A DNA stretch of 64,000 bases from Rhodothermus marinus (GTDB taxonomy: Bacteria; Bacteroidota; Rhodothermia; Rhodothermales; Rhodothermaceae): the NCBI RefSeq assembly GCF_009936275.1, contig NZ_AP019797.1:3269890-3333889 (forward strand). Direction: 5' to 3'. A program made the translations under genes and the position numbers. The notes under the pieces were generated by a model that was given only the letters and a program-made list of their open reading frames with translations, was not told the origin of the DNA and ran no database searches. This document shows, in pieces, positions 45,503-48,279 of this stretch. Each line of letters begins with the position of its first letter. The first letter of the stretch is position 1.

Positions 45503-45916
45503 TCAGGGTTGCACGTGAATGACCACCGGTCCGTAGGTGAAGCCTTCCTCCAGACCCAGCGCCCGGGCGCGCTCGTAGATGACGGCCGGACTCGTGGCCC
45601 GGTCGAATTCGCCCTTCAACCGGTTGTACGTGAGCACCAGTTGCAGATGCTCGCGCCGCAGGCGCTGCACTTCCTGAAGCGCCTCCCGCGTGGCGTACAC
45701 GTGCCACACGTAGGCGAGAAACAGCAATGCCGCGCCGATCACATACAGCGTGAGCCGCCGCGCCGAGAAGCGGACGCCCCGGAGCTGATCCGCCCGGGTC
45801 GTCTCCCGGCGGGCCAGCTCGCGCCACGACGGCCAGCGTGTCGTCGTACGCGCCGTCGGCCGTCTCGGACGGCCGGCACGACCACTTCGGTCTGTTTTTG
45901 TGCGTGTTCCGATCAT
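45503..45916 (-). CDS. ftsL: FtsL-like division protein
   Basis: A 137-residue bitopic protein: a basic cytoplasmic tail rich in Arg and Thr, one transmembrane segment (LTLYVIGAALLFLAYVWHVY), then a coiled-coil stretch (ATREALQEVQRLRREHLQLV) as in FtsL. Sequence similarity for FtsL is always weak, so the call rests on topology and its place between rsmH and ftsI. It overlaps the rsmH stop by four bases. FtsL helps activate FtsWI. Confidence 0.85.
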   Translation of the reverse strand: MIGTRTKTDRSGRAGRPRRPTARTTTRWPSWRELARRETTRADQLRGVRFSARRLTLYVIGAALLFLAYVWHVYATREALQEVQRLRREHLQLVLTYNRLKGEFDRATSPAVIYERARALGLEEGFTYGPVVIHVQP

Positions 45917-46899
45917 GCGTTTTCCGTTTCCGCTACCCGTTCAGCAATGCGTAGCCGGGCGCTTCGGGCCCGCGGGTTGGCGGCCACTTCGTCGTCGGAG
46001 GGTCGGATCGCCCGGCGGGTCAGCGGCCGCCAGGGCGCGATCAGGCGCCCGTAGAAGTCACGCACGGGCTCGCCTTTCAGGTTGCCATAGCGCAGAAAGC
46101 GCTTCACGCGCCGGTCCTCCAGCGAATGGTAGCTGAGCACGGCCAGCCGTCCGCCCGGACGCACCCGGCGCGTGGCGGCTTCCAGTGCCCGTTCCAGCGC
46201 CTGCAATTCGTCGTTGACGGCAATGCGCAGCGCCTGGAAGACGCGCGCCAGTGTCTTGGTCGCCTCCTTTGGCGGCACCTCGCGCCGCACGACCTCGGCC
46301 AGTTCGGCGGTGGTGCGGATCGGCCGGGCCCGACAGATGGCGCGGGCCAGTTTGCGTGCACGTGGCTCCTCGCCATAGCGCCGCAGCACCTCGGCCAGCT
46401 CGTATTCGCTCCAGCGCTCCAGGAGCTGTGCGGCCGTCGGACCCGGACTCGTCGGGTCCATGCGCATGTCGAGCGGCCCTTCGGCCTGGAAGCTGAACCC
46501 GCGCAGCGCTTCGTCGAGCTGGTGCGAGGAGACGCCCAGGTCCAGCAGCAACCCGTCGATCTGTGCCACCCCGAGCCGGTCCAGGATCGCCTCCAGGTCG
46601 GCAAAATTGCCCTGCACGAGCTGGAGACGTCCGGCCTCGATGGCGTCGCTCAGCCGGCGGCGCACCGCCTCCAGGGCCTCCGGGTCCCGGTCGATGCCGA
46701 TAACACGCCCTTCGGGCGCCAGCGCATCGAGCAGGGCGGCCGCGTGCCCGCCACCGCCGATCGTGGCGTCCACGTAGCAGCCCGCCGGATCGGTGACCAA
46801 CCCTTCGACGACAGCCTTCCAAAGAACCGGTACGTGATACGGCGAGCCATAAGGCCCCGCCGCTCCGGTATCTGTATGCGCCGACCGCTCGCTCATCAC
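45913..46899 (-). CDS. rsmH: 16S rRNA (cytosine1402-N4)-methyltransferase
   Basis: A 328-residue SAM-dependent methyltransferase. YHVPVLWKAVVEGLV opens the family, DATIGGGGHAAALLDAL binds SAM, GLLLDLGVSSHQLDEALRGF and LAVLSYHSLEDRRVKRFLR are family signatures. It methylates C1402 of 16S rRNA. It overlaps mraZ and ftsL by four bases each, which suggests coupled translation through the first three genes of the operon. Confidence 0.97.
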   Translation of the reverse strand: MMSERSAHTDTGAAGPYGSPYHVPVLWKAVVEGLVTDPAGCYVDATIGGGGHAAALLDALAPEGRVIGIDRDPEALEAVRRRLSDAIEAGRLQLVQGNFADLEAILDRLGVAQIDGLLLDLGVSSHQLDEALRGFSFQAEGPLDMRMDPTSPGPTAAQLLERWSEYELAEVLRRYGEEPRARKLARAICRARPIRTTAELAEVVRREVPPKEATKTLARVFQALRIAVNDELQALERALEAATRRVRPGGRLAVLSYHSLEDRRVKRFLRYGNLKGEPVRDFYGRLIAPWRPLTRRAIRPSDDEVAANPRARSARLRIAERVAETENA

Positions 46900-47339
46900 G
46901 CCGCCATCACCCTTTCGGCCAGCGTCTCGTAGCTCTCCATTTCCCTGTTCACGAACTGATCGAACGTGGCCGGATCCCAGATCTCAATGTGATCGAGCGC
47001 CCCGATGATCAGCGCCCGATCCTTGATGCCCGCAAACTCCATCAGCGGCTTGGGCAGCACGATGCGCCCCTGCCGGTCCAGCGTGACCTCCTCGGCCCAG
47101 CGCAGCAGCTGGCGCACGAAGTTGCGCGCCTCGCGCTGATACAAGTTGAGCGACATCATCTGCTCTTCGATCTCCTCCCAGCGATCGAGCGGATACAGGA
47201 AGATGCACTGCTCGAAGCCGCGCGTGGCCGTGAAGGTCCCCTTGGCCTCGGGCTTCAGGACGGCCCGCATTTTGGCCGGAATGGCCACCCGGCCTTTCTC
47301 GTCCACGGAGTACTCGGCCTGTCCCTTGAAGCCCGCCAT
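46896..47339 (-). CDS. mraZ: Transcriptional regulator MraZ
   Basis: A 147-residue protein with two SpoVT/AbrB-like repeats. The first contains YSVDEKGRVAIPAKMRAVL and the second EVTLDRQGRIVLPKPLMEFAG. MraZ binds repeated TGGG-type boxes upstream of its own gene and controls the division operon in other bacteria. Such boxes are present here at 47391-47414, overlapping the promoter. It is the first gene of the operon. The assignment is secure. Confidence 0.96.
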   Translation of the reverse strand: MAGFKGQAEYSVDEKGRVAIPAKMRAVLKPEAKGTFTATRGFEQCIFLYPLDRWEEIEEQMMSLNLYQREARNFVRQLLRWAEEVTLDRQGRIVLPKPLMEFAGIKDRALIIGALDHIEIWDPATFDQFVNREMESYETLAERVMAA

Positions 47340-47390
47340 TGCGCTTCCCCGTGCAGGGTCCTCGCATTAAACCAGGGTCGTGGGAAAATT

Positions 47391-47414
47391 CCCCACTTTT
47401 CCCCACCACCCCCA
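47391..47414 (-). promoter_or_regulatory. Candidate MraZ operator (three TGGGG boxes)
   Basis: On the minus strand TGGGG occurs at 47414-47410, 47405-47401 and 47395-47391, steps of 9 and 10 bases. MraZ operators elsewhere are repeats of TGGGN at about one helical turn. The boxes begin at the last base of the predicted -7 element and run through the likely transcription start, a position suited to repression. Confidence 0.7.
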
Positions 47415-47443
47415 CAAGGTACATCTTTTTTTCAAAAAGTCAA
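47414..47443 (-). promoter_or_regulatory. Putative promoter of the division operon
   Basis: On the minus strand TTG (47443-47441) is followed after 19 bases by TACCTTGT (47421-47414), similar to TAnnTTTG. The surrounding sequence is unusually AT-rich for this genome. It is the only promoter-like sequence seen upstream of mraZ. Confidence 0.6.
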
Positions 47444-47534: not shown

Positions 47535-47584
47535 GGTGAAATTTTTTTCACCATATCATTCAGACTGGTAAAAATCTTTTCACC
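47535..47584. promoter_or_regulatory. Two 18-bp palindromic operators upstream of the LexA-like gene
   Basis: GGTGAAATTTTTTTCACC (47535-47552) is a perfect GGTGAAA-N4-TTTCACC palindrome. GGTAAAAATCTTTTCACC (47567-47584) is the same with one mismatch. The centres are 32 bases apart, about three helical turns, so two dimers would sit on one face of the DNA. The second ends 5 bases before the -7 element TATCTTTG, so binding should block transcription. They are the likely sites of the adjacent repressor itself. Confidence 0.65.
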
Positions 47585-47588
47585 TGCT

Positions 47589-47596
47589 TATCTTTG
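47589..47596 (+). promoter_or_regulatory. -7 element of the lexA-like gene
   Basis: TATCTTTG is an exact match to the TAnnTTTG element of Bacteroidota-type promoters. It lies 36 bases before the start codon. The matching -33 region is weak (CTGG near 47565-47568) and is overlapped by the second palindrome. Confidence 0.55.
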
Positions 47597-47631: not shown

Positions 47632-48279
47632 ATGAAGGGCCGCCTGACCGCGCGACAGAACGAAGCCTACGAGTTCATCCGCACCTACCAGCGCCGCCAC
47701 CACAAACCCCCCACCCTCCAGGAGATCGGCGAGGCGCTGGGCATCCGCTCCACCAACGGCGTCTTCAAGCTGCTCCGGGCGCTTGAAAAGAAAGGCTATC
47801 TCCGCCGGGACCCCGGCGCCGCCCGCGGCCTGCACCTGCTCGACAGCGACGATCCGTTCGCGCTGACCGACGAGGTGCCCAGCCTGCCGGTCATCAGCCG
47901 CACGGCCAGCCACGAGCCCGAACGCCTCCGCGCCCGACCGGCCGGCTTCCTCTCGGTCGATCCGTTCTTTCTGCCCCGGGGCCTCGACCCCGATGCCTGC
48001 CTGATCGGCCGCGCCGGCGACGACGGCATGAGCGGCGAAGGTATTTTCAAAGGCGATCTGCTCCTGATCGAAGAAGTGCCCTGGCGCACGCTGAACAACC
48101 GCGAGCTGGTCGCCTGTCTGGTGGGCGAATTGCTACTGGCCCGCCGCTTCGTCTTCGCCAACAACCGGATCCACCTCCAGCCGGCCAACCGGACCTACCT
48201 GGAGGAGGTCTTCCCTCCGGACGACCCGGGCTGCTACGTCGTCGGTCGCATCCGGGCCGTCTTCCGACGCCTTCCATAA
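47632..48279 (+). CDS. LexA-family repressor lacking the autocleavage dyad
   Basis: A 215-residue protein. Residues 1-65 are a clear LexA winged helix: LTARQNEAYEFIRTY, PPTLQEIGEALGIRSTNGVF and LEKKGYLRRD. The C-terminal half aligns with the LexA/S24 domain (LPVISRTASHEP, GIFKGDLLLIEE, YVVGRIRAVFR), but the essentials are missing. The cleavage Ala-Gly is Ala92-Ser93. In an ungapped alignment the catalytic serine position is Gly132, although Ser134 is nearby. There is no lysine at all after Lys140, so no Ser-Lys dyad can form. It probably binds DNA without RecA-triggered self-cleavage. It is divergent from the division operon and has two palindromes in its promoter. Confidence 0.85.
   Translation: MKGRLTARQNEAYEFIRTYQRRHHKPPTLQEIGEALGIRSTNGVFKLLRALEKKGYLRRDPGAARGLHLLDSDDPFALTDEVPSLPVISRTASHEPERLRARPAGFLSVDPFFLPRGLDPDACLIGRAGDDGMSGEGIFKGDLLLIEEVPWRTLNNRELVACLVGELLLARRFVFANNRIHLQPANRTYLEEVFPPDDPGCYVVGRIRAVFRRLP

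Follow-up and report, generated by a model that had tools for sequence, protein, structure and literature searches.

A new operator type for an apparently uncleavable LexA-like clade beside the division cluster of Rhodothermus marinus

Two palindromes in the promoter of a lexA-like gene of Rhodothermus marinus, here called lexA2, are well supported as a genuine new operator type, GGTGAAA-N4-TTTCACC, of a LexA-family clade (LexA2), because the pair is conserved and phased in the promoters of orthologues and is missing at mraZ in genomes that lack lexA2. The sites, their conservation, phasing and near-exclusive location, the loss of catalytic residues in the protein and the synteny of the locus were all computed. 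LexA2 proteins look permanently uncleavable, and LexA2 is probably not an SOS switch, since the parts needed for a damage response have been lost and the gene has its address beside cell-division genes.

The operator pair and its surroundings

The features below lie within the window, that is, the whole 64,000-nucleotide stretch of DNA that was analysed.

O1, 47535..47552, no strand assigned: perfect GGTGAAA-N4-TTTCACC (GGTGAAATTTTTTTCACC, 14 of 14 arm bases), conserved in orthologue promoters
O2, 47567..47584, no strand assigned: GGTAAAAATCTTTTCACC, 13 of 14 arm bases with one mismatch, filling the -35/spacer region of the lexA2 promoter
Probable lexA2 -10/-7 element, 47589..47596, plus strand: TATCTTTG, with TATCTT kept in 7 of 7 Rhodothermus genomes
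lexA2, 47632..48279, plus strand: 215-aa LexA-family protein with a winged-HTH and a degenerate S24 domain
Probable mraZ promoter, 47415..47443, minus strand: TTGACT-N16-TACCTTG, -10/-35 conserved genus-wide and recognisable order-wide
MraZ-box-like direct repeats, 47391..47406, minus strand: GTGGGGAAAAGTGGGG, just downstream of the mraZ -10
mraZ, 46896..47339, minus strand: first gene of the dcw cluster, divergent from lexA2 (NCBIfam TIGR00242, 124.5 bits, above cut-off)
mraW (rsmH)-like ORF, 45913..46899, minus strand: next dcw gene, conserved beside mraZ in related loci

The initial annotation had described one perfect and one imperfect palindrome with centres three helical turns apart, and both points were verified: the arm bases are as listed, and the start-to-start distance is 32 bp, or 3.05 turns of 10.5 bp. 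Its statement that the second palindrome abuts the promoter element is nearly right, in that O2 lies close by but ends 4 bp before TATCTTTG. The left arm of O2, GGTAAAAAT, is unchanged in all seven Rhodothermus genomes. Sequence comparison also bore out that the core is neither the CTGT-N8-ACAG box of E. coli nor the GAAC-N4-GTTC box of Bacillus. No literature on LexA operators of Rhodothermus or Salinibacter was found among the papers searched, and the comparison with known LexA motifs was a non-exhaustive one.

Rarity and conservation of the sites

Within the window alone, the count of sites is unremarkable (2 matches at no more than 3 mismatches versus 1.0 expected). Across the complete 3.43-Mb genome, O1 and O2 are the only matches to GGTRAAA-N4-TTTYACC with 0-1 mismatch. 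With up to 2 mismatches there are 12 sites in all versus 18 for a reversed control pattern, so that the 2-mismatch class is background, and in every Rhodothermus genome scanned at this level the matches were fewer than those of the reversed control.

The idea that the palindromes represent a new operator type of a distinct LexA branch had been tied in advance to conservation upstream of orthologues, and this conservation proved to be strong. The pair is kept in all seven Rhodothermus genomes examined, although the sequence around it varies considerably, and it is also conserved in most other genera carrying lexA2. Of 47 mraZ-lexA2 intergenic regions from the order, 42 contain a site with 11 or more of the 14 arm bases and 36 contain a second such site, a level that the second-best site reached in none of 940 shuffles. 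By our own count, the exact sequence RGTGAAAANNNTTTCACC has 18 distinct sites among the 113 genomes scanned from the order, as against 1 for the reversed control. Sixteen lie in the mraZ-lexA2 region; the other two (G088 and G101) are single, unpaired and in genomes without lexA2. A 12-base core, again by our own count, yields about 37 sites in the mraZ-lexA2 region; elsewhere it is found about 13 times in 49 lexA2 carriers and about 34 times in 64 non-carriers. Because such off-region sites are no commoner in carriers, there is no sign of a wider regulon, although additional LexA2 targets with more divergent sites may exist.

The operator is absent from the mraZ upstream region at 13 loci in genomes without lexA2, where the best match is 9 of 14, as in shuffles (two extractions ended by contig ends, L246 and L256, were left out of this count). 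Furthermore, the weakest operators (L133, L137 and L138) coincide with the most altered LexA2 recognition helices. O1 and O2 are very probably the landing sites of their own gene's repressor, LexA2.

Helical phasing

Across the order, the O1-O2 spacing is 22, 31-33, 41-43 or 54 bp, corresponding to 2, 3, 4 or 5 turns, and with one value per genus the phase coherence is R=0.88 at 10.5 bp. Distances measured to the start codon of either gene, mraZ or lexA2, serve as a control and show no helical phase (R=0.18), which argues against a phasing artefact. The distance from the mraZ -10 to O1 is also phased, more loosely than O1 is to O2 (R=0.65; jitter p=0.0006, with all phasing p-values being optimistic because the genomes tested are related). 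The CACATR boxes found on either side of the operators in genera other than Rhodothermus are phased as well (R=0.86 and 0.84). The placement of O1 and O2 on the same face of the helix suggests cooperative binding.

The LexA2 protein and the loss of self-cleavage

LexA2 belongs to the LexA family by its DNA-binding domain (Pfam LexA_DNA_bind, PF01726: E 7.8e-19, 67.7 bits against a cut-off of 23.7) and by its C-terminal domain (Peptidase_S24, PF00717: E 3.6e-8, 33.5 bits against 23.3), but it scores under the cut-off of the NCBIfam lexA equivalog TIGR00498 (94.9 versus 110.95 bits). The best PDB matches of its AlphaFold2 model (pLDDT 88) are LexA structures (3k2z, 1jhh/1jhf), including the fold of the C-terminal domain.

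Residue states were read from an alignment of 49 LexA2 proteins to E. coli LexA. The position of the catalytic Ser119 holds Gly in 48 and Ala in one, that of the catalytic Lys156 holds Arg in all 49, and an intact scissile Ala-Gly is seen nowhere in the alignment, Rhodothermus LexA2 having Ser-His. In the recognition helix, Lys replaces Glu45 in 48 of 49. The autocleavage residues are intact in 17 of 19 canonical LexA proteins of the same order and in 17 of 17 LexAs from outside it. As the replacement residues are themselves conserved, the LexA2 condition looks like a stable state rather than decay. Residues 128-133 of LexA2 (AGDDGM) carry a nearly invariant GDDGM motif in place of the LexA serine loop. 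Separately, two canonical-type LexAs of family f9 (L156 and L157, from G040 and G038) lack the catalytic Ser (Glu or Ala) and Lys (Cys), as well as the Ala of Ala-Gly.

In a phylogenetic tree, the canonical LexA1 of the order splits off with full support. Support for the LexA2 group is low (0.24) because of very divergent members, and a single origin of LexA2 is consequently not proven.

The question of an SOS response

In the initial annotation the palindromes had been compared with known SOS boxes, and a genome scan for GGTRAAA-N4-TTTYACC upstream of genes, above all recA, uvrA, dinB and division genes, had been proposed. When the scan was run, it did not support an SOS box. The recA and umuDC promoters of the same genome, both inspected directly, have 5 mismatches at best, and the whole-genome scan gave no site with 0-1 mismatch at any other repair gene. 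A feature of canonical SOS systems, an operator in the repressor's own promoter, is found for lexA2 as a predicted site, by sequence and conservation. Rhodothermus LexA2 is the only LexA-type HTH protein above cut-off in its genome; no canonical cleavable LexA was found in Rhodothermus, although RecA and UmuDC are present. Most related genera carry a canonical cleavable LexA besides LexA2. In the Rhodothermus umuDC operon (G000:C1:1629852-1630695; L231, L234), the self-cleavage site of UmuD is intact despite the absence of canonical LexA. As one study points out, citing its sources, a non-cleavable LexA cannot start SOS induction (PMC3091678).

The divergent mraZ-lexA2 locus

The divergent pairing of lexA2 with mraZ recurs in 47 of 50 loci, while the other flank of lexA2 varies; the genera in this set have LexA2 proteins with 36-67% identity to that of Rhodothermus. 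Between the two genes the elements always come in one order, given here from mraZ to lexA2: MraZ-type boxes, mraZ promoter, O1, O2. A -10-like hexamer follows O2 within 14 bp in 20 of 38 orthologue promoters. The probable mraZ promoter in the window was not returned by a strict sigma-70 scan. The direct repeats GTGGGGAAAAGTGGGG are presumably an MraZ box, and repeats of this type are found order-wide in nearly all intergenic regions, lexA2 present or absent (here within 47380-47443). The neighbouring ORF we take, from its sequence, to be mraW (rsmH).

About 113 bp separate O1 from the mraZ -10 in Rhodothermus, which is too far for simple occlusion, so that any effect on mraZ would need looping or action at a distance.

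Two genomes depart from the usual arrangement. In G053 (L125/L198), lexA2 is interrupted by an in-frame stop codon and is some 500 bp more distant, and the operator pair is fully intact near mraZ. In G051 (L236, L237), the operator pair is beside mraZ and lexA2 is on another contig without operators, through either rearrangement or an assembly fault. As draft assemblies these are a weak basis, but they hint that the operators serve mraZ too.

CACATR boxes and canonical LexA

In most genera (L020-L136), CACATR boxes lie on both sides of O1/O2, with 75 matches versus 9.8 expected in genera other than Rhodothermus and family f11. They are missing in Rhodothermus (1 versus 1.3 expected) and in family f11 (0 versus 1.5). 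The promoters of canonical lexA genes are also enriched in CACATR (14 versus 3.6 expected), and the box is similar to a portion of the LexA motif of Balneolaeota (PMC7739468). Given this enrichment and likeness, it is plausible that canonical LexA controls lexA2 through these boxes.

These observations have led to a more tentative proposal, which may be correct but for which the chances appear rather modest. In it, the non-cleavable LexA2 would serve as a dedicated division-cluster regulator, and LexA2 at O1/O2, the mraZ promoter and, in most genera, two CACATR boxes, probably those of canonical LexA, would together make up a single helically phased divergent element. DNA damage would act through canonical LexA on LexA2 and in this way on the expression of division genes. 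Rhodothermus would have lost canonical LexA and the boxes and kept the LexA2 part.

A model for LexA2 and its alternatives

In the model that we consider probable, a non-cleavable LexA2 represses itself at O1/O2 and probably also tunes mraZ and the dcw cluster. A LexA2 dimer would bind each palindrome through its winged HTH, and the two dimers would sit on one side of the DNA, probably binding cooperatively. Since O2 lies in the -35/spacer region next to the -10, LexA2 bound there would block RNA polymerase, giving negative autoregulation. RecA-triggered self-cleavage should not lift this repression because LexA2 is without Ala-Gly, the catalytic serine and the catalytic lysine; derepression would instead come through protein level or another signal. 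The likeliest second target is the divergent mraZ/dcw cluster: the phased complex probably affects the mraZ promoter as well, which would make LexA2 a regulator acting locally on its own gene and on the division and cell-wall cluster. LexA2 binding, repression, cooperativity and action on mraZ are what we infer from the computed features. Of the two halves of the model, the one that concerns the division cluster is less certain.

That half would fall away if the operators serve lexA2 only, with the mraZ neighbourhood a functionless inherited synteny and any other targets having other or degenerate sites. This is a serious though less probable reading. It would fit the position of O2, which adjoins the lexA2 -10 and not the mraZ promoter, the near-absence of the motif outside the mraZ-lexA2 region, and the behaviour of Leptospira LexA2, for which binding was seen at its own promoter but not at those of the other UV-induced genes that were tested (PMC3789691). 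However, O1 and O2 are in phase with the mraZ -10 and not with the start codons, and the adjacency to mraZ persists in nearly all loci despite the varying other flank. Another possibility is that the palindromes, lying as they do in the mraZ upstream region, bind a different dcw regulator, such as MraZ, rather than LexA2. The pair beside mraZ without lexA2 in G051 could be read in this way, but the 13 lexA2-less loci lack the palindromes at mraZ, most of them having the usual MraZ-type boxes, and operators are weak where the LexA2 recognition helix is altered; this explanation is unlikely, and an MraZ site as such was rejected as a candidate on the absence upstream of mraZ in lexA2-less genomes.

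It has also to be asked whether LexA2 is the true SOS repressor of Rhodothermus, controlling recA, umuDC and repair genes and inactivated by RecA-stimulated cleavage. Its standing as the genome's sole LexA-type HTH protein above cut-off is in keeping with this, and for other groups it has been proposed that a diverged copy took over when the primary LexA was lost (PMC8565304). Against it are the lack of any other site with 0-1 mismatch, recA and umuDC included, and the replacement of all three autocleavage elements, with conserved Gly/Arg, in a genome whose UmuD keeps them, so that we regard it as very unlikely. Finally, the unremarkable count in the window would by itself allow chance AT-rich palindromes, or RNA hairpins or terminators. 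Chance was ruled out by conservation across genera, and a terminator or RNA element by the finding of neither a terminator-like nor an Rfam match at the sites, which furthermore lie upstream of the -10 and between divergent genes; the probability left to this explanation is negligible.

Comparison with known systems

LexA2 shares with LexA of the E. coli and Thermotoga type the winged HTH, the S24-fold C-terminal domain and palindromes in its own promoter. It differs in being without Ala-Gly, Ser119 and Lys156, in its operator, and in that repair-gene sites were not found. The LexA of Synechocystis PCC 6803 has likewise lost cleavage residues and has apparently left the SOS role (PMC3091678). 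It has Gly-Gly for Ala-Gly and Asp for Ser, in one species among those compared (PMC3091678), whereas the Gly/Arg state of LexA2 is clade-wide, in most genera in a paralogue beside canonical LexA, and LexA2 has a dedicated two-operator element and mraZ synteny. In Leptospira interrogans, too, the second LexA (LexA2) has a palindrome of its own, which was found in the promoter of its gene but at none of the remaining UV-induced genes tested; LexA1 likewise binds that promoter. This LexA2 differs in having cleavage-competent residues, depletion after UV, a prophage-like region and the motif TTGTA-N10-TACAA (PMC3789691). Unusual LexA operators are known from neighbouring phyla, in Balneolaeota (PMC7739468) and for non-canonical LexA of Bacteroidetes (PMC8565304), but these motifs (TTACACATATTTTWTACATA, a direct repeat; GGA-N5-TCC; CTAA-N5-TTAG) are different, and these proteins control SOS regulons (PMC7739468, PMC8565304).

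Implications

What had been a vague "new SOS box" becomes a testable local circuit, with a new operator type and an uncleavable-looking LexA clade at a fixed genomic address beside the division cluster. For the study of phased repressor pairs, the series of spacings from 2 to 5 turns is a clean natural experiment. A lexA annotation is no guarantee of an SOS response. If the proposed relay from canonical LexA through LexA2 to the division genes is true, it would provide a SulA-independent link from SOS to division.
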